Source of the DNA: Candidatus Omnitrophota bacterium
Lineage (GTDB): Bacteria; CAIJMQ01
Assembly: GCA_018812925.1 (NCBI GenBank)
Contig: JAHJCU010000004.1
Span: forward strand, 308,289 to 372,288
Length of the DNA stretch: 64,000 nucleotides
Direction: 5' to 3'
Shown: one piece after another, positions 11,003 to 63,298 of the stretch
Position numbering within the stretch: position 1 is the first letter of the stretch
Layout of the letters: each line of letters starts with the position of its first letter
Made by a program: the position numbers and the translations under genes
The notes under the pieces: generated by a model
What the model was told of the DNA's origin: nothing
What the model saw: the letters and a program-made list of their open reading frames with translations, nothing else
The model's database searches: none

Positions 11003-11362
11003 TCAAGACTTTTCAATATACCTAATTAATCCTTCGAGAATCTTAGCAGTATTCTCATGCTTTAAGTTAAGTTCTTTAAATTTTTCATGATTAATATATT
11101 CTACATCTTCAGAAAATTTAATGTAATAACTCAACTCTGATAATGAAGACATTGCTATATACAAAAACTGAATATATTCATTTTTATGTCTCCGTACAGA
11201 GCCTTCCACTATGTTAGCTGGAACCGATACTGTCGCTCTTCTCATTTGCGAAATCATTCCCCATATTTCACTTTTAGGAAAATTTTCTGTTGTTTGATAT
11301 ATAGCTAAAGCCAACTCGTTAGACAACTGCCATGCCTTTATCTTCTTATAATCTCTTGTCAT
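11003..11362 (-). CDS. Four-helix-bundle protein of the 23S rRNA-intervening-sequence (S23/bIVP) family
   Basis: A 119-residue all-helical protein. The family hallmarks are visible: KIKAWQLSNELALAIY at the start, then an IWGMISQMRRATVSVPANIVEG helix-turn. These proteins were first found encoded inside intervening sequences of 23S rRNA. Relatives include the Avd accessory protein of diversity-generating retroelements. Here the gene stands alone between inverted repeats (10978-10995 and 11369-11386), and its terminal codons and TGA stop lie within the extended left arm. A second paralogue is at 62846-63208. The molecular function is unknown; nucleic-acid binding is a reasonable guess from the basic surface of the family. 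Confidence 0.85.
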   Translation of the reverse strand: MTRDYKKIKAWQLSNELALAIYQTTENFPKSEIWGMISQMRRATVSVPANIVEGSVRRHKNEYIQFLYIAMSSLSELSYYIKFSEDVEYINHEKFKELNLKHENTAKILEGLIRYIEKS

Positions 11363-30184: not shown

Positions 30185-31009
30185 ATGAAGCTAAACGAAA
30201 TAGTAAATAAAAAAGAATTGGCTCCCAGTGTCAAACTTTTTGATATATACGCGCCTAATATAGCAAAGAAATGCCTGCCCGGTAACTTCATAATATTGAT
30301 GGTATCCGAATACGGGGAAAGAATCCCTCTTACAATAAATGACTGTGATAGAGCGAAGGGAACGATAAGAATCATCGTTCAGGAAATAGGCAGAACAACA
30401 CAAGAACTTGGCAAAATGAAAGTGGGAGAAATCATCCCCAATCTGATGGGTCCGCTCGGTCATGCCTCCCATATAGAAAAATTCGGTAAAGTGGTATGCA
30501 TAGGAGGCGGAGTGGGAACCGCAGTAATGTATCCCATTGCAAAAGCACTAAAAGAAAAAGGAAACGAAGTTATCACGATTATAGGCGCAAAAACAAAAGA
30601 GCTTGTAATCCTTGAAGAAGAGATGAAAAAAATCAGCTCTTCCGTCCACATTACCACTGACGACGGAAGTTACGGAAAGAAAGGTTTTGTAACCGATGCC
30701 TTGAACGAAATTCTCTCGGCACAAAAGATAGACAGAGTATTTGCAATCGGTCCGCTTATAATGATGAAGATAATAAGCGAAATAACAAAACAGTATTCAA
30801 TTCCCACAATCGTCAGTTTAAATCCCATAATGATAGACGGAACGGGAATGTGCGGCGGTTGTCGTGTAAGCGTGGGCAATGAAACAAAATTCGCCTGTGT
30901 TGACGGCCCGGAATTCGATGCGCACAAAGTCAATTTTGATGAACTACTGCATAGAAATAATAGATTTGCCGAAGAAGAACAACATTCGTGCAAACTCCAA
31001 GAAAAATGA
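30185..31009 (+). CDS. nfnA: Sulfide dehydrogenase/NfnA-type FAD and 2Fe-2S subunit
   Basis: A 274-residue FNR-superfamily flavoprotein. The NAD-binding GGGVGTAVMYPIAKAL is followed near the C-terminus by a 2Fe-2S motif with DGTGMCGGCRVSV and FACVDGPEFD. This arrangement is that of the small subunit of NADH-dependent ferredoxin:NADP oxidoreductase (NfnA) and of sulfide dehydrogenase SudB. It forms a heterodimer with the next gene product. It would exchange electrons among NADH, NADPH and ferredoxin by flavin-based bifurcation. Its TGA overlaps the ATG at 31006. Confidence 0.88.
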   Translation: MKLNEIVNKKELAPSVKLFDIYAPNIAKKCLPGNFIILMVSEYGERIPLTINDCDRAKGTIRIIVQEIGRTTQELGKMKVGEIIPNLMGPLGHASHIEKFGKVVCIGGGVGTAVMYPIAKALKEKGNEVITIIGAKTKELVILEEEMKKISSSVHITTDDGSYGKKGFVTDALNEILSAQKIDRVFAIGPLIMMKIISEITKQYSIPTIVSLNPIMIDGTGMCGGCRVSVGNETKFACVDGPEFDAHKVNFDELLHRNNRFAEEEQHSCKLQEK

Positions 31010-32382
31010 GAAAAAGACCTGTAGAAGAAAGAATAAAAGATTTTGAAGAAGTTGCTTTGGGTTTTAGCAAAGAAGAAGCAATAGCCGAAGCAACCAGATG
31101 TCTGCAATGTAAAAAACCTCTTTGTATAAATGGCTGCCCAGTCCAGATAAATATTCCTAAATTCATAAAAGAAATTGCCGAAGAAAAATTTAGTAATGCG
31201 ATCAAAACATTAAAAGAAACTAACAGCCTGCCGGGAATCTGCGGGAGAGTGTGTCCGCAGGAAACACAATGCGAAATGTTCTGTATCTTGGGCAAAAAAG
31301 GCAAACCCATAGATATCGGAACACTTGAGAGGTTTGCATCAGATTGGGAAATTAAATTAGACCAAAGACCAAAAGCCAAAAGCCAAGAGCCAAGAGCCAA
31401 GAACCAAGAGCAAGTTAAGTTGGCGGTGGTCGGTTCAGGTCCTGCAGGACTTACTTGCGCGGGCGAACTTGCAAAGATGGGTTATGATGTAACGATATTC
31501 GAAAGCTTGCATAAAGCAGGCGGTGTATTAAGATACGGCATACCTGAATTCCGTATGCCCCGTGATATTCTCGACAGCGAAATCCAATATGTAAAAGATT
31601 TGGGAGTCCAAATAAGATGCGATGTCTTAATAGGAAAAACATTTTCCATAGACGAACTTTTTGAAGCAGGATATAAAGCGATATTCATCGCAAGCGGCGC
31701 CGGATTACCGCAGTTTTTGAATATAGAAGGTGAAAATGCCAACGGCGTTTATTCCGCAAACGAATTTCTCACCCGCGCCAACCTGATGAAAGCCTATGAT
31801 AAACAATATCATACTCCTATAAAAATCGGGAAAAAAGTCGGCGTGATAGGCGGCGGTAATGTTGCAATGGATTCAGCACGTGTCGCTTTAAGATTAGGCG
31901 CTGAAGAAGTTTATCTGGTTTACAGGCGTTCTGAACAAGAAATGCCTGCAAGAGAAGAAGAAAGGGAGAACGCCAAAGAAGAGGGAATACAATTTAAAAT
32001 TCTAACGCAACCGGTCAGAATAAAAACAGATGACAAGGGATGGGTGAAAGAAATTGAGTGCCTGCAGATGCAACTCGGCGAGCCCGATGAATCCGGCAGA
32101 AGAAGACCTGTCCCGATAAAAGATTCCAATTTTTCTATTCCTTTGGATACTATTGTTATCGCAATAGGACAAAATCCAAACCCTCTTATCCCATCATCCA
32201 CTCCAAATCTAAAAACCGGCAAGAAAGGGACAATAGAAGCAAATGAAGCGGGAGCAACATCTATTGAAGGAGTATTTGCAGGCGGCGATATTGTAACCGG
32301 CGCCGCAACGGTCATAGAAGCAATGGGCGCAGGAAGAAAAGCCGCAAAGGCAATGGATGAGTACATCAAAAACAAGTTATAA
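31006..32382 (+). CDS. nfnB: NADPH-dependent glutamate synthase small-chain-like subunit (NfnB/GltA)
   Basis: About 458 residues. N-terminal cysteines form two 4Fe-4S sites (CLQCKKPLCINGCPV and CGRVCPQETQCEMFC), followed by FAD motif GSGPAGLTCAG and NADPH motif GGGNVAMD. The ATG at 31006 overlaps the nfnA stop (ATGA) and is preferred to a GTG at 30988. Around residues 122-136 (KAKSQEPRAKNQEQ) sits a low-complexity insert encoded by CCAAAAG/CCAAGAG words (31363-31412), likely one arm of a genome repeat. With nfnA it forms a bifurcating transhydrogenase, or a sulfide dehydrogenase. Confidence 0.88.
   Translation: MRKRPVEERIKDFEEVALGFSKEEAIAEATRCLQCKKPLCINGCPVQINIPKFIKEIAEEKFSNAIKTLKETNSLPGICGRVCPQETQCEMFCILGKKGKPIDIGTLERFASDWEIKLDQRPKAKSQEPRAKNQEQVKLAVVGSGPAGLTCAGELAKMGYDVTIFESLHKAGGVLRYGIPEFRMPRDILDSEIQYVKDLGVQIRCDVLIGKTFSIDELFEAGYKAIFIASGAGLPQFLNIEGENANGVYSANEFLTRANLMKAYDKQYHTPIKIGKKVGVIGGGNVAMDSARVALRLGAEEVYLVYRRSEQEMPAREEERENAKEEGIQFKILTQPVRIKTDDKGWVKEIECLQMQLGEPDESGRRRPVPIKDSNFSIPLDTIVIAIGQNPNPLIPSSTPNLKTGKKGTIEANEAGATSIEGVFAGGDIVTGAATVIEAMGAGRKAAKAMDEYIKNKL
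31363..31412. repeat. Low-complexity CCAAAAG-type words inside nfnB
   Basis: The reading frame runs through repeated AGCCAAAAGCCAAGAGCCA words, unlike the flanking codons. Similar CCAAGATACA words occur at about 1963 and 40887. No complementary arm is nearby. Confidence 0.5.
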
Positions 32383-32426
32383 GTTGTAAGTGGTAAGTTA
32401 AAGACTAAAACAAAAAATTGATGCTA

Positions 32427-32446
32427 GATACTAGATTCTCGATGCT
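32427..32446 (+). repeat. Left inverted repeat of the HEPN cassette
   Basis: GATACTAGATTCTCGATGCT pairs with 33352-33371 at 19 of 20 positions. Confidence 0.85.
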
Positions 32447-32556
32447 AGTAGAAACAAAGAAAAATAATGGTCGCATCTTGTATTAACATATTTGTGTAGA
32501 CCATGCTCTTTTTTGATTCATTTATCGGTTTCAAGAAAGGCATGCTGGGGTAATAT

Positions 32557-33360
32557 ATGACACGAATATTAAGGGACGAGGATGTAGAAAAAATTGAACA
32601 GAATTTAATATTGCTAAAAAGTCGTTACACAAAGCTTGTTTTTAAGATTTTCAATATACAAAATGTCTTTAAAAATGAAAAGTCTAAAGAATATTTAATT
32701 CATGGCGTTGTACGTCGATTAGATGTTATTGAACGTTGCGTTGAGAATATTTATTCTATATTTCCTCTGAGGAGAGAAAAATTATTAAGTAGAGACGAGT
32801 TAAAGGATGTCGATATAAACCTGCATGCTTTTTTTATAAATATTTTTGGACTTTTAGATAACATAGCTTGGGTAGTTGTGTATGAAAAGAACAAATCAGT
32901 AACGATTGATAAACGAACTGTTGGTTTATATAAAAAGGAAACACAAGAGTGTTTAGATGATGATTTTAAGAAATATTTAAATTCAGACATAATGAAAAAA
33001 TGGCACGATGAATATTTAAGAAATTATCGTAATGCATTATCTCATCGAATCCCACTCTATGTGCATCCTAAAAAGCTGACACAAAAACAAAAAGAACAAG
33101 AAGAAGTTATTGGCGAAAAAATAGTAGAGGCAATGAAAAACCAAGACACTGATGAAATGGATACCTTACAAAGAGAGATGGATGGTATCGGAGAACCATC
33201 TCCTTCTTTTGTGCATTCATTATCAGAAACAGGTAACAAATTTGTAATATTACATGCTCAAGTAATCACTGATTTTGGAACAGTAGAAGAAATTATCAAA
33301 AAATTTTGCGAATCATTTGAAGTAGTTAATCCGACAAAGAATTTTTCAACGAGCATCTAG
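32557..33360 (+). CDS. HEPN-like protein of unknown function
   Basis: A 267-residue, mostly helical protein. Residues 155-163 read RNYRNALSH, giving an R158-x4-H163 motif typical of HEPN RNases and of Abi-like defence proteins. The segment FGLLDNIAWVVV earlier resembles the conserved helix of HEPN-like families. The 200-240 region is acidic and may be disordered. The stop codon TAG lies inside the right inverted repeat (33352-33371). No partner gene lies inside the repeats, so if it is a toxin its antitoxin is missing or external. RNase activity is an inference from one motif. Confidence 0.6.
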   Translation: MTRILRDEDVEKIEQNLILLKSRYTKLVFKIFNIQNVFKNEKSKEYLIHGVVRRLDVIERCVENIYSIFPLRREKLLSRDELKDVDINLHAFFINIFGLLDNIAWVVVYEKNKSVTIDKRTVGLYKKETQECLDDDFKKYLNSDIMKKWHDEYLRNYRNALSHRIPLYVHPKKLTQKQKEQEEVIGEKIVEAMKNQDTDEMDTLQREMDGIGEPSPSFVHSLSETGNKFVILHAQVITDFGTVEEIIKKFCESFEVVNPTKNFSTSI

Positions 33361-33371
33361 AATCTAGTATC
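33352..33371 (-). repeat. Right inverted repeat of the HEPN cassette
   Basis: AGCATCTAGAATCTAGTATC is the complement of 32427-32446 with one mismatch. It contains the TAG stop of the HEPN gene. Confidence 0.85.
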
Positions 33372-33430
33372 CAGAATCTAAAACTTTTCCCTTTTTCCCC
33401 TGTCTGTTATATAATAAATCTTTGAAACAT

Positions 33431-33516
33431 GCGGACGTGGCGGAATTGGTATACGCGTATGGCTTAGGACCATATCCCTTCGTGGGTTGAGAGTTCAAGT
33501 CTCTCCGTCCGCACCA
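33431..33516 (+). tRNA. tRNA-Leu (anticodon TAG)
   Basis: The acceptor stem GCGGACG pairs with CGTCCGC. The anticodon loop CTTAGGA gives TAG, reading CTA/CTN leucine codons. A long class II variable arm and the TTCAAGT T-loop are present. The 3' ACCA is encoded. Confidence 0.96.
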
Positions 33517-33530
33517 CAATCAGGGATTTG

Positions 33531-33634
33531 ACCCCGTTGAAGATTTAAAAAGATGCGGGATATTTGTTAACCACACAAGCAATTATTACTCTATATAGTA
33601 CTTAATAGGTCGTTTGTTAAATCTTTTACGGGGT
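33531..33634. repeat. Family A-like inverted repeat between the two tRNAs
   Basis: Arms at 33531-33548 (ACCCCGTTGAAGATTTAA) and 33617-33634 are complementary at 16 of 18 positions around a 68-nt loop. The ACCCCGTT end is shared with the elements in ogg and near dapL. Confidence 0.75.
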
Positions 33635-33793: not shown

Positions 33794-33871
33794 GATTATC
33801 ACAAAGGGATATCTGCGTGATAATCACCCCGAGAGTATCCCGAAGGTTTTCGGGATGGCTTACGACGGGGT
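33794..33871. repeat. Two adjacent hairpins downstream of tRNA-Gly
   Basis: GATTATCAC (33794-33802) pairs with GTGATAATC (33817-33825). It is followed by ACCCCG...CGGGGT arms (33826-33871) around ATCCCGAA/TTCGGGAT. No T-run is present. The remaining 160 nt before tig contains a weak ACAGAT/ATCTGT dyad at about 33956-33980. Confidence 0.65.
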
Positions 33872-34033
33872 CTTGCGAAAGATAGCAATCTACGCTGAAA
33901 CACGCAGGAACAGAACGGAGACACAATAGAAGTACATAGTAGACAGACAACAGAATACAGATATTTTTTAATCTGTGTAATCTTCTTTTGAAATCTGAGT
34001 AATCATATATTTGAGTGAAACGAGAATAACAAA

Positions 34034-37090: not shown

Positions 37091-37126
37091 TCTACCTTAT
37101 ACGCCACAAAAAATTTAGGACAGGGG

Positions 37127-37154
37127 TTTACAATCCAATTTTGCATGTTATAAT
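37127..37154 (+). promoter_or_regulatory. Strong promoter for the candidate 6S RNA
   Basis: TTTACA (37127-37132), a 16-nt spacer and a consensus TATAAT (37149-37154) would start transcription near 37161, exactly at the base of the predicted terminal stem. Confidence 0.7.
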
Positions 37155-37160
37155 AAACCA

Positions 37161-37346
37161 AGGCTCTGGGATATACGTGATGGAATAAATGGAATCTTGA
37201 GCCAAATGGTTAAAAAGGGAATTCTACTTTGGGTAAAGCGTGTACGTCCCGACGTAACGTCGGGAAAACACAAACTATTCAAGAGAATACCCACTTTGTA
37301 AAGCAGCTTTAAGATTCCTGTCCCACACGGTATCTTGGGGCTTTTT
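37161..37346 (+). ncRNA. ssrS: Candidate 6S RNA
   Basis: No protein is encoded here, yet the roughly 185 nt fold on paper into one long rod. The ends pair: 37163-37179 (GCTCTGGGATATACGTG) with 37326-37341 (CACGGTATCTTGGGGC), with G-U pairs and one bulge, followed by TTTTT. Next, GGAATCTTGA (about 37191) pairs with TTTAAGATTCC. Then GGGAATTCT pairs with AGAATACCC around a mismatch. The apex is a perfect 8-bp TCCCGACG hairpin. A strong promoter, length, rod shape with interior openings, and position after zapA all fit 6S RNA, which sequesters the housekeeping RNA polymerase holoenzyme. A covariance search would be decisive. Confidence 0.62.
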
Positions 37347-37367
37347 AATCGGAACCGTGTTCCAATT

Positions 37368-37489
37368 ACCCCGTAGAGTATCGAAAAAATATCGCGAATT
37401 CCCCGTGTCTTGTCGTAGCGAGATAACAATGGAGAGAGAAATTTTGGAGAAAATTCTGGAAATTTTTTCGATGTCTTACGTTGCGGGGT
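37368..37489. repeat. Family A-like inverted repeat upstream of pdxA
   Basis: The block begins ACCCCGTAGAGTATCGAAAAAAT and ends with the near complement ATTTTTTCGATGTCTTACG...CGGGGT. The interior is AT-rich with an ATGGAGAGAG stretch. No gene is seen. The remaining 99 nt before pdxA are AT-rich without clear signals. Confidence 0.65.
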
Positions 37490-40039: not shown

Positions 40040-40215
40040 ATAATCTAATCGCATATAAATGCGATTAGATTATCCCGCCGAGTGCGGGACTAAAGAAAAC
40101 CACAGCAGAAGAAAAAAGATTCATCCCCCTATTCTGATTTCAAACCCCGAGAAATTCGGGGAATTTCCGGGACCAAAGTCCCTGAAATTGCAGAATGCAA
40201 TTTCTAGGGGGAAAT
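40040..40215. repeat. Row of hairpins upstream of the corrinoid protein gene
   Basis: Four or more hairpins follow one another. A perfect 15-bp stem (40040-40054 with 40059-40073, loop ATAA) is followed by TCCCGC/GCGGGA (about 40073-40089), CCCCGA/TCGGGG (about 40145-40161), GGGAC/GTCCC and ATTGCA/TGCAAT. A TATAAT at 40039-40044 overlaps the first stem. Parts resemble the repeat at 22200-22330. The B12-riboswitch core sequences were looked for and not found. Confidence 0.65.
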
Positions 40216-40239
40216 CAAGGGGGAAAAAGGAAAGTTTAT

Positions 40240-56671: not shown

Positions 56672-56695
56672 AACGAAAAGTAAAAAGTTATCATC

Positions 56696-56745
56696 AAAGC
56701 GCCCTTTTTAGCAAGCTTTATTACTGAAGAGGGCGCTTTTTCTAA
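56696..56745 (+). terminator. Rho-independent terminator after gdhA
   Basis: AAAGCGCCCTTTTT and GAGGGCGCTTTTTCT form a G/C-rich stem with a 20-nt loop and a T-run. Confidence 0.85.
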
Positions 56746-56767
56746 AATTACAAAGATTATAAAAATT

Positions 56768-57859
56768 GTGGCAATAAAATCTAAAAAGGCAATCATTGCT
56801 CTTGAAGACGGGAAGGTATGGGAAGGATTACATTTCGGCGCAAAAGGTGAAAGCTATGGTGAAATAGTTTTCAATACCAGCATGGCCGGCTATCAGGAAA
56901 TACTTACCGACCCTTCCTACAAGGGACAGATTGTTGCCATGACTTATCCCCTCATCGGAAATTACGGAATAAACAGCGAAGATGTGGAATCTAGAAAACC
57001 CTTCTTAGCAGGTTTCATAGTAAAAGAATGCAGTCAAATCTCAAGCAATTGGCGCTCGCAAAAAAGTCTGGATGAATATCTTAAAGAAAATAATATTATA
57101 GGCATAGAAGGCATAGATACGCGCGCTCTTACAAAACATATAAGATTGCAGGGAGCAATGAAAGCGGTAATCTCTACAAAAGATTTAGACAACAACTCAT
57201 TAATCAAAAAAGTAAAAGCATCTGAGGGATTGATAGGCAAAGATTTAGTCAAAGAGGTCACCTGTAAAAAATTACAAACTTGGAACAATCAAGGTAAATA
57301 TAAAGTTGTCGTGCTGGATTGCGGAGTTAAATTTAATATCTTAAGAGAATTAGCCAATAACAACTGTAAAGTGATTTTCGTGCCGGCTAAAACCGATGCA
57401 AAAACCATATTGGGTTTGAAACCTGACGGGCTACTGCTTTCAAACGGTCCGGGCGACCCGGAAGGTGTTCCCTATGTTGTGGAAACCGTAAAAGAATTAT
57501 TAGACAAGTTACCAATTTTCGGCATATGTTTCGGGCAACAAATGTTGGGGTTGGCTTTGGGCGGAAAAACATATAAATTAAAATTCGGACATCACGGAGC
57601 AAACCATCCCGTCAAAGATTTAAAAACAGGCAAGATTTACATAACCGCGCAGAATCACGGATTCTGTGTTGATATTAATTCTTTAAACAAAGAAGATATC
57701 GAAATAACACATGTAAACTTGAATGATAATACGTTAGAAGGAATTAAACATAAAAAATTGCCCGTTTTTTCCGTGCAATTTCATCCTGAGGCAGGACCCG
57801 GTCCAAACGACGCAAAATACCTGTTCGGGAAATTTGTAAAAATGATGAAAAACAGTTGA
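56768..57859 (+). CDS. carA: Carbamoyl-phosphate synthase small subunit
   Basis: A 363-residue glutaminase subunit. The N-terminal domain has EDGKVWEGLHFGA and FNTSMAGYQEILTDPSY. The class I amidotransferase domain has SNGPGDP, nucleophile GICFGQQML and the His/Glu pair in QFHPEAGPGP. The start is a GTG at 56768 without a visible Shine-Dalgarno. It supplies ammonia to CarB for pyrimidines and arginine. A hairpin repeat separates it from carB. Confidence 0.95.
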   Translation: MAIKSKKAIIALEDGKVWEGLHFGAKGESYGEIVFNTSMAGYQEILTDPSYKGQIVAMTYPLIGNYGINSEDVESRKPFLAGFIVKECSQISSNWRSQKSLDEYLKENNIIGIEGIDTRALTKHIRLQGAMKAVISTKDLDNNSLIKKVKASEGLIGKDLVKEVTCKKLQTWNNQGKYKVVVLDCGVKFNILRELANNNCKVIFVPAKTDAKTILGLKPDGLLLSNGPGDPEGVPYVVETVKELLDKLPIFGICFGQQMLGLALGGKTYKLKFGHHGANHPVKDLKTGKIYITAQNHGFCVDINSLNKEDIEITHVNLNDNTLEGIKHKKLPVFSVQFHPEAGPGPNDAKYLFGKFVKMMKNS

Positions 57860-57862
57860 TAG

Positions 57863-57932
57863 TCTATGGTTGATAGTTTATAGCAAAAAGTCACTGTGCG
57901 CCATAAACCATACACTACAAACTATAAACCAA
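57863..57932. repeat. Hairpin repeat between carA and carB
   Basis: TATGGTTGATAGTTTATAG pairs with CATAAACCATACACTACAAACTATAAACC-type words across a short loop. Similar words with CCATACACTATAG lie before tRNA-Gly (about 33650-33710). Confidence 0.7.
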
Positions 57933-57939
57933 GTTAAAC

Positions 57940-59661
57940 ATGCCCAAAAGAACGGATATAAAAAAGATATTAATAATCGGTGCAGGTCCTATCGTAATCG
58001 GACAGGCATGCGAATTTGATTATTCGGGAACACAGGCATGTAAAGTTCTCAAAGCCGAAGGATTTCATGTTATCCTGCTAAACAGCAATCCTGCAACGAT
58101 TATGACAGACCCAATAATGGCTGACAAAACATACATCGAGCCAATTACTCCCGAAATAGTTCAAAGAATTATTGAAAAAGAAAGACCTGACGCCATCCTA
58201 CCTACACTCGGCGGACAAACTGCGCTAAATGTTACCGTGCAAGTTGCAGAAATGGGAATATTCGATAAATACAATGTGGAAGTCATAGGCGCAAATATAC
58301 AAGCTATCAAAAAATCCGAAAACAGAGAACTATTCAAAAAGGCAATGCATAAAATAGGATTAGATTTACCCCGAAGCGATAAAGCTCATAACCTAAAAGA
58401 AGCTCTTGAAGTGGCCGAAAAAATCGGATTTCCCGTAATTATCAGGCCCAGTTTTACGCTGGGCGGAACAGGCGGAGCAGTCGCATACAACATAGAAGAA
58501 TTCAAACGGTTAGCTAAGACAGGTCTTGAATCGAGTATGATTAGCCAAATATTAATTGAAGAATCCGTCATCGGATGGAAAGAATTCGAATTGGAAGTTA
58601 TGCGGGACGTAAAAGACAATGTTGTTATTATATGTTCCATAGAAAATTTTGACCCTATGGGTGTTCATACGGGCGATTCGATTACAGTTGCTCCCATACA
58701 AACCTTAACCGACAAAGAATATCAAAAAATGCGTGATGCCTCAATTGCATGCATCAGAGAAATAGGCGTAGAAACGGGCGGCTCCAATATTCAATTCGCG
58801 GTTAATCCCGATAACGGACGAATGGTAGTTATTGAAATGAATCCGAGAGTATCAAGAAGTTCCGCATTAGCTTCCAAGGCAACGGGTTTTCCAATTGCAA
58901 AGATAGCCGCAAAACTTGCCGTTGGATATACGTTGGACGAAATCCCCAATGACATCACAAAAGAAACTCCGGCGTGTTTTGAACCGACTATAGATTATTG
59001 CGTAGTAAAAATTCCGCGCTTCACATTCGAAAAATTCCCTGATGCGGACTCTACTCTAACCGTATCTATGAAATCCGTAGGCGAAGCAATGGCAATCGGC
59101 AGAACATTCAAAGAAGCGCTGCAAAAAGGATTAAGGTCTTTGGAAATAGGAGTAGACGGTCTTACGGATTTAAAATCCGAAGTCTCTGAAAGTAAACTTG
59201 CCGAAAAGTTAAGGACTCCAAACGCCGAGAGAATTTTTTATATAAAATACGCTATTAAAAATGGCATGGATATCAACGATATTTATAAACATACTCAAAT
59301 TGACAGATGGTTTTTACATAACATCCAAGAAATTGTAGAATTGGAAAAACAGATAACAGATTTCAGTCAACAGATGTCGGATAACAGATGCCAGAAAACA
59401 GAGAATAAAAGACAAAAGAATCTGCCATCTGACGTCTGTCCTCTGTCTTCTGAGCTTTTATTAAAAGCTAAACAGTTCGGGTTCAGTGATAAACAGCTTG
59501 CAAGAATACTGAAAACAGAAGAAGAAGTTATTAGAAAGTTGCGCAATAAATTGAACATTAAAGCCGTATATAAACTGGTTGATACCTGCGGAGCAGAATT
59601 CGAAGCTTACACCCCGTATTACTATTCTACCTATGAAAAAGAAAATGAAAGCTGTAACTAA
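57940..59661 (+). CDS. carB: Carbamoyl-phosphate synthase large subunit, N-terminal half only
   Basis: A 573-residue protein, about half of a standard CarB (near 1070). It contains the first ATP-grasp unit ([17 protein letters not shown], then [12 protein letters not shown] and [18 protein letters not shown]) and the oligomerisation domain. It ends at [14 protein letters not shown], exactly where the second synthetase unit normally begins. guaA follows at once and no second half is present. Split carB genes are known (for example in Aquifex and methanogens), so a partner may lie elsewhere. Residues about 477-505 are a repeat-derived insert (59370-59454). Confidence 0.9.
59370..59454. repeat. 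CAGA/TCTG hairpin repeat inside carB
   Basis: AACAGATGTCGGATAACAG-type words pair with GACGTCTGTCCTCTGTCTTC-type words downstream. The frame stays open and encodes about 30 polar residues ([12 protein letters not shown] and flanks) not found in CarB. It is the same family as the intergenic copy at 22698-22757. Confidence 0.8.
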
Positions 59662-61195: not shown

Positions 61196-61199
61196 ACAA

Positions 61200-61290
61200 A
61201 GCTGTAAGCTTTAAGCTATAAGTTGTAAGTAAAAAATAAAAGCAGTTAAAGTAGTTGACTTAAAGCTTAAGGCTTAGAGCTTATAGCTAT
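61200..61290. repeat. TAAGCT-word hairpin between guaA and hisH
   Basis: GTAAGCTTTAAGCTATAAG-type words are followed, after an AT-rich loop, by ACTTAAAGCTTAAGGCTTAG and AGCTTATAGC words that are roughly complementary. Relatives flank the four-helix gene downstream (62766-62842 and 63208-63292). Confidence 0.75.
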
Positions 61291-61299
61291 GGTGAAAAA

Positions 61300-62765: not shown

Positions 62766-62768
62766 TTG

Positions 62769-62786
62769 TAAGCTGTAAGCTATAAG
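62769..62786 (+). repeat. Left inverted repeat of four-helix-bundle cassette 2
   Basis: TAAGCTGTAAGCTATAAG is complementary to 63260-63277 at 17 of 18 positions. It also belongs to a local hairpin (62766-62842). Confidence 0.7.
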
Positions 62787-62845
62787 CTGTAAGTAATAAA
62801 ATTAGTAAACTTAAAGCTTATAGCCTATAGCTTATAACTTTAAAT

Positions 62846-63208
62846 ATGCCGCATACATTTAAAAATATAAAAGTTTGGCAAAAAGCACATGAAATGGTTT
62901 TACAGATATATAAAATTACAGAAGATTTCCCAAGTTCAGAAAAATACGGATTGACATCACAGTTTAGAAGAGCAGCTGTTTCAGTAGCGACTAATATTGT
63001 GGAAGGTTATAAAAAAAAGACTGACAAGGATTTTGCGCATTTTCTTAACCTTGCCGATAGTTCCTTAGAAGAAACTAAATATCATCTTCTTTTAACTCTT
63101 GATTTAAAGTATTTAGACAAAAAATATTACCAGGATTTATCAATACTAGCAGATGAAGTTGGAAGAATGTTATTTGGATTTAGAAGAAGTTTAAAATTTA
63201 AATCTTAA
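62846..63208 (+). CDS. Four-helix-bundle protein of the 23S rRNA-intervening-sequence (S23/bIVP) family, copy 2
   Basis: A 120-residue paralogue of the 11003-11362 protein. KNIKVWQKAHEMVLQIYKIT and YGLTSQFRRAAVSVATNIVEG are the family signatures. The C-terminus FRRSLKFKS is basic. It interrupts a purine/histidine gene run (hisF to purF) and is flanked by inverted TAAGCT-word repeats (62769-62786 and 63260-63277). A direct duplication, AATTAGTAAACTTA, also occurs on both sides (about 62799 and 63249). These features suggest insertion as a unit. Function unknown. Confidence 0.85.
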   Translation: MPHTFKNIKVWQKAHEMVLQIYKITEDFPSSEKYGLTSQFRRAAVSVATNIVEGYKKKTDKDFAHFLNLADSSLEETKYHLLLTLDLKYLDKKYYQDLSILADEVGRMLFGFRRSLKFKS

Positions 63209-63259
63209 AACTTACAGCTTAAAGCTGTTTTTTAAAATAGTAGTAATTTAATTAGTAAA

Positions 63260-63277
63260 CTTATAGCTTAGAGCTTA
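63260..63277 (-). repeat. Right inverted repeat of four-helix-bundle cassette 2
   Basis: CTTATAGCTTAGAGCTTA pairs with 62769-62786 (17 of 18). Further TAAGCT-type words lie at 63208-63228 and to 63292. Confidence 0.7.
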
Positions 63278-63298
63278 AAGCCTAAAGCTTTATTTAAC

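Follow-up and report, generated by a model that had tools for sequence, protein, structure and literature searches.

A candidate HEPN-type RNase gene between two halves of a heptamer hairpin at a variable gltD/tRNA-Leu site

The main result of this analysis is a stand-alone gene, in the genome of a Candidatus Omnitrophota bacterium, for a probable HEPN-fold protein that would act as a metal-independent RNase of the toxin or abortive-infection type. The gene appears to occupy a variable defense-gene site between gltD and a tRNA-Leu gene, and to sit there between the two halves of a resident hairpin made of degenerate heptamers (GATNCTN). It would have spread mainly by homologous recombination across its conserved flanks, once the DNA had been taken up or had arrived on a plasmid or phage, and the hairpin halves would be a docking place or a passenger rather than a proven mobilizing device. 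We put the probability of this reading as a whole at roughly 0.55. The cassette-like anatomy of the locus and the lateral movement of the gene are supported by the data; RNase chemistry, an anti-phage role and the route of spread are what we infer from them, and movement by the arms is unproven.

Anatomy of the locus

Within the window, the whole 64,000-nt stretch of DNA analyzed here, the HEPN-type gene (267 aa) lies at 32557-33360 (+). Its conserved left neighbor is a gltD-like gene at 30988-32382 (+), with Fer4_20 and pyridine nucleotide-disulphide oxidoreductase domains, and its conserved right neighbor is a tRNA-Leu (TAG) at 33431-33516 (+). A preliminary description of this DNA had noticed a 20-bp inverted repeat around the single gene, and both arms are indeed there: GATACTAGATTCTCGATGCT at 32427-32446 (+) and a partner matching at 19 of 20 positions at 33352-33371 (-). 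They are the only matches in the window at up to 3 mismatches, and none is expected by chance. The inverted pair is longer than the 20-mer, extending over 35 nt with 86% complementarity (32420-32454 and 33344-33378), and each arm is a 28-nt array of four degenerate 7-bp units (GATNCTN). The left arm at 32420-32447 (+) reads GATGCTA GATACTA GATTCTC GATGCTA. It is followed by the inner core of a half-element, GTAGAAACAAAGAAAAATAAT, at 32448-32468 (+), a core shared with complete hairpins at other genomic positions, and then by the leader of the gene at 32469-32556 (+), in which a GGGG seven bases 5' of the ATG is, judged by eye, a possible ribosome-binding site. On the right side, the inner core TTTTTCAAC at 33342-33350 (+) falls inside the final codons of the gene, and the right arm, an inverted GATNCTN array at 33351-33378 (-), holds the TAG stop at 33358-33360, as had been described.

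The two arm halves are thus separated by 903 nt. Homologues of the protein are shorter by about seven residues at the C terminus, and the C-terminal tail KNFSTSI is the least confident part of the AlphaFold2 model; hence, the native end of the gene has apparently been lost to the right half-element. Together with its leader, the gene is present in a single copy in the genome. The earlier remark that the locus has no transposase was borne out, since none is linked to it among the neighboring genes. Nor is there a nucleotidyltransferase (MNT) gene beside the HEPN-type gene, whose neighbors are gltD and tRNA-Leu, and a HepT-type toxin-antitoxin pair was ruled out for want of that partner.

Heptamer hairpins in the genome

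The repeat survey sampled approximately 752 kb in stretches, comprising almost all of contig 11 and the greater part of contig 4. GATNCTN arrays have 41 matches genome-wide, against 0 in the reversed control, and arrays of three units number 36 in the 752 kb (control, 0). They are mostly compact hairpins. In each of the 12 complete ones in the sample, a 28-nt arm and its inverted counterpart enclose a loop of 15-38 nt whose core is GTARAAACAA ... TTAAC. The window pair carries both halves of this core (GTAGAAACAAAGAAAAATAAT and TTTTTCAAC), its 903-nt spacing is unique to it, and on either side the next GATNCTN array is about 42-44 kb distant. Given the matching core halves, the 903-nt gap and the lack of any other GATNCTN array within some 40 kb, the pair looks, from its sequence, like a single hairpin that the gene has opened. 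Solo GATNCTN half-elements are also found elsewhere in the genome, so that the two arms are possibly independent halves.

The search for the 20-mer therefore yields a divided answer, because the exact 20-mer is local to this pair, whereas the GATNCTN motif that composes it is genome-wide. A private 20-bp terminal repeat was ruled out, the arms being two halves of a hairpin element common in this genome, and the cassette with dedicated 20-bp ends of its own that the preliminary description had suggested finds no support in that form. Arms found singly throughout the genome, which the same description had named as evidence against itself, are in substance what the survey encountered.

More generally, 7-bp arrays of many different units occur throughout the genome (141 at lag 7 in the 752 kb, versus 2-15 at other lags). 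Over long distances, inverted pairs of the same unit are not enriched over direct pairs, and inversion alone consequently proves little. A single criterion for a gene inside inverted 7-bp arms, applied to 681 ORFs, returned only five enclosed ORFs, among which the HEPN-type gene has the highest score. The remaining four are two PF05635 genes, of the 23S-rRNA-intervening-sequence type, and one amidotransferase-like and one small membrane-protein-like ORF, the last two labels stemming from sequence reading only. The whole genome holds five PF05635 genes; four of them lie in the stretch tested and two of these are in inverted arms, at 62846-63208 (+) and 11003-11362 (-) of the window, both outside rRNA. 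At the site of the former, a genome of the same genus (G001; tig 97% identical) has only a hairpin of another unit. The HEPN-type protein has no Pfam match and hence is not a PF05635 protein.

The arrays differ considerably between these two genomes. For 34 array sites both flanks could be located in G001, where six sites have the same unit, three a weak match, 15 another unit and ten no array at all. Arrays are present in 22% of the intergenic gaps of G001, and the 15 of 25 sites with another unit exceed expectation, in a comparison that leaves gap length uncontrolled. Unrelated 7-bp units at shared intergenic hairpin sites can be seen at 61199-61296, 62767-63290 and 57855-57900 of the window when compared with G001 (C8). 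Heptamers also occur within coding regions. The gltD coding sequence has an in-frame 7-nt array in a linker (window 31359-31411, L053 1650-1729, L054 9366-9415), and its unit differs in three related genomes (AAGAGCC, GACGAGG/CAATCCT and AAAAGTC). A CAGAT-type heptamer hairpin lies inside a coding region at 59348-59402 of the window, and there G001 keeps the same unit.

The protein and the HEPN question

The R-x4-H motif that had been pointed out in the gene reads R158-NALS-H163 (codons 33028-33030 and 33043-33045, +). Both residues are invariant in 67 aligned family members, as are G50, R54, W149, R164 and P166, and family conservation reaches beyond R and H to a stretch HR[IM]PLY[IV]PP. The residue after R158 is N in the window protein and one of N, D and H in each of the 11 sequences inspected, the motif scan of relatives having used the pattern R[DNH]. 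The AlphaFold2 model (pLDDT 94, pTM 0.89) is almost all helical; in it, the R-[NDH]-x3-H motif closes helix 144-163, which ends at H163, and D101, at least 90% conserved, is located in helix 79-110. HEPN proteins have been defined by Rx4-6H at the end of helix 3, by N, D or H directly following R and frequently by an acidic residue in helix 2 (PMC3710099), and the window protein displays all three features.

The HMM search proposed as a check in the preliminary description returned no match to any HEPN family in Pfam or NCBIfam, and neither did the PDB sequence search; across Pfam, NCBIfam, PADLOC, PHROGs and PDB sequences nothing decisive was found. A HEPN_Apea search of the relatives gave no match, and its controls likewise gave none. 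The nearest solved HEPN fold in the VIA list is HepT of the MntA-HepT system, with Z 8.2 and rmsd 3.0 over 117 of 128 residues, in a list where unrelated helical bundles reach Z 9.2, and hhalign of the family against HepT gave no signal. The top matches of Foldseek and VIA (F-BAR, rhodopsins, GPCRs) were regarded as helical-bundle noise. The suggestion of a HEPN-like protein thus stands as likely on motif, conservation and helix placement, whereas neither profile nor fold searches rise above noise; similarly, structure prediction confidently returned an all-helical protein with the motif at a helix end, and fold matches at the level of that noise. On balance, we consider it likely that this is a HEPN protein, and RNase activity to be probable as well.

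Like the RNases of the HEPN superfamily (Anantharaman et al. 2013, PMC3710099), the window protein is all-helical, has Rx4H ending a core helix, a polar residue after R and an acidic residue in the upstream helix; such RNases are also often encoded beside restriction-modification genes. It departs from them in lacking a profile match to any named family, in its 267 aa with extra helices and in the conserved HR[IM]PLY[IV]PP stretch. Unlike MntA-HepT, the window gene has no nucleotidyltransferase antitoxin next to it.

Relatives and their surroundings

Close relatives of the protein are few, with only one in 97 other genomes searched (G003, from another genus). More distant relatives are found on 17 plasmids, mainly rhizobial, on one phage-labeled contig, on 87 genome contigs and on 10 IMG/VR contigs, and some are on contigs deposited as Omnitrophota. 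The nearest full-length relative (L105, 67% identical) is encoded directly after a type I restriction subunit gene, and by ORF reading two others are near an HsdS-like gene (L124) and a few kb from an HsdR-like end (L106). The family gene is mostly stand-alone, with an operon-like upstream neighbor in 12 of 62 cases and a downstream one in 5 of 64, and some of its neighbors match PADLOC models such as REase_I, Dsr2, PD-T4-3, LmuA and AbiGi. The family is widespread and undescribed, without an existing model, and of a kind already known; a role in defense is plausible for it.

The gltD/tRNA-Leu site and lateral movement of the gene

In G003 the sister gene lies directly 3' of gltD and is followed by tRNA-Leu, as in the window; four-point distances place the two proteins as sisters. 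The G003 copy is distributed over two contigs, and foreign sequence forms the end of one of them: the gene enters this sequence at the contig end (L033 1815-2010) and resumes at the start of the other contig (L032 1-3), perhaps as a result of interruption by an insertion.

The divergence of the gene between the two genomes is markedly lower than that of its surroundings. The pS of window versus G003 is 0.38 for the gene, 0.62 for the adjacent gltD and 0.67 for tig (Fisher p 3e-6 for the gene versus gltD and 6e-8 versus tig), and at four-fold sites the gene has 11 of 42 differences, against 95 of 159 in gltD and 42 of 79 in tig. No low-divergence block is found in gltD next to the gene. The gene's GC3 is low (0.20-0.23), which could reduce its synonymous divergence somewhat and is unlikely to account for the difference. 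The gene's dN/dS of 0.29-0.42 argues that the protein is constrained. Synonymous divergence far below that of gltD and tig thus supports a common ancestor of the gene more recent than that of its flanks, and hence lateral transfer into or between the two lineages at the same site; plain vertical inheritance together with gltD was ruled out by the same values. On the 5' side of the G003 gene, the alignment with the window continues into the beginning of the left arm (p 0.003), and at the right arm there is a weak alignment (p 0.09), so that arms now diverged may have accompanied the gene.

The same-genus genome has no empty gltD/tRNA-Leu site, because another gene occupies it. This gene, on the opposite strand, encodes an 894-aa protein with N6_Mtase and Methylase_S domains; it is flanked by inverted arrays of another unit (AGACTNT), and its arm score is above that of the HEPN-type gene. 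In the genomes compared, the interval is accordingly best described as a variable defense-gene site. The word "movable" in the preliminary description is therefore apt for the gene, in view of its lower pS, of the restriction-modification gene at the G001 site and of relatives carried by plasmids and viral contigs or lying next to restriction genes; the arms as its movers are the part left unproven.

Several other differences between the window genome and G001 were observed nearby. A MITE-like element with CCCCGT/ACGGGG ends, at 33531-33634 of the window, is absent from G001, where the empty site is GGGATTTGACAG, and shows an apparent TTGA duplication. A small repeat family with ends ACCCCGNAGAGTATCG ... 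CGATACGGGGT (window 33829-33890 and 37120-37460; L053 6150-6410) has several copies, variable between the two genomes. The window has a 105-nt insertion relative to G001 at 40121-40227, and at 56679-56796 G001 has 14.5 kb of extra sequence.

Discussion

A gene in a heptamer hairpin was not found in the literature searched, in which the nearest arrangements are heptamer direct repeats and IVS elements. The STRR of cyanobacteria are intergenic heptamer direct repeats too, and the arrays described here resemble them in their 7-bp units, intergenic location and pervasiveness in one genome. The same holds for the TAACTGA repeats of Beggiatoaceae, intergenic heptamer direct repeats with one fixed unit and one indirect case (PMC4679880), whereas here many families of degenerate units exist, and pairing as inverted arms is frequent. 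Intervening sequences of 23S rRNA with S23p/PF05635 ORFs (e.g. in Coxiella burnetii) have been described as selfish (PMC4990558), and they share with the window locus one small gene in a hairpin-type site without a transposase of its own, a likeness that the two PF05635 genes in inverted 7-bp arms extend. Nonetheless, the window gene is not PF05635, and it sits in a heptamer hairpin between genes rather than in a helix of rRNA. MITE and REP/BIME elements also combine inverted arms with many dispersed non-coding copies, but the arms here are degenerate 7-mers and target duplication is not proven. Among the features of a MITE or composite transposon, the terminal inverted repeats are present (35 nt, 86%), and further copies of the whole unit are absent from the genome, where arms alone are many. 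The REP-associated Y1 transposase (PF01797) is absent from the genome (~92% complete) in a search with positive controls, and REP/RAYT mobilization was ruled out for that reason.

Three other readings of the locus were weighed. The arms might be the ends by which a recombinase, acting in trans, recognizes and moves a non-autonomous element, in which case the compact hairpins would be its empty or internally deleted, MITE-like forms. The anatomy is compatible with this, since arms, matching inner cores and gene make up one unit, an 8-bp repeat (ACAAAGAA) flanks the inserted stretch on both sides, two of the four PF05635 genes in the tested stretch share the arm anatomy and the G003 flanks may keep diverged arms. 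We nevertheless hold it unlikely, given that the locus lacks a transposase and the genome a Y1 transposase, that the arms are degenerate arrays and not precise ends, that the gene with its leader is single-copy and that long-range inverted pairs are no commoner than direct ones; moreover, the ACAAAGAA repeat lies in element-derived A-rich sequence, aligns partly with the G003 flank and may not be a target duplication. The lack of long-range enrichment speaks for two unrelated half-hairpins of a common repeat that happen to stand beside an accessory gene to which they are irrelevant, as do the pervasiveness of 7-bp arrays and the frequency of half-elements. Such chance flanking is nonetheless improbable, because arms enclose only five of 681 genes, with the HEPN-type gene at the top, because the next GATNCTN arrays are some 42-44 kb off on either side and because the half missing on one side is precisely the one present on the other.

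The remaining alternative concerns the protein, which could be a non-HEPN all-helical protein (e.g. a scaffold or binding protein) in which the role of the conserved R and H would be structural or in ligand binding. Searches by sequence and by fold that stay within noise, and conservation extending to HR[IM]PLY[IV]PP, speak for it, yet it seems doubtful in the light of the invariant R and H, the N, D or H after R, the near-invariant acidic D101 in the upstream helix and a motif placed as defined for HEPN, to which the alignment with HepT chains can be added. The preferred reading remains that of a stand-alone, probable HEPN RNase gene lodged in a hairpin at a variable defense site.

The locus adds to the HEPN superfamily a widespread candidate family without a model, whose members occur on plasmids and viral contigs and next to restriction genes, and which has two invariant residues open to mutation. 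It also provides a chromosomal site at which sister species differ in their defense genes without a visible transposase, and it ties selfish IVS-type genes and a defense-type gene to one class of degenerate 7-bp hairpins with quick turnover. Here we go one step further to suggest, as a speculation that we consider quite unlikely to hold in full, that heptamer hairpins are docking sites: single selfish or defense genes (HEPN-type, IVS/S23p-type and single-chain restriction-modification) would lodge in inverted 7-bp arms, the hairpin unit at a given intergenic site would be replaced from one close species to the next, and one recombination system would drive both processes. If true, this would constitute a new route for the spread of small defense genes.
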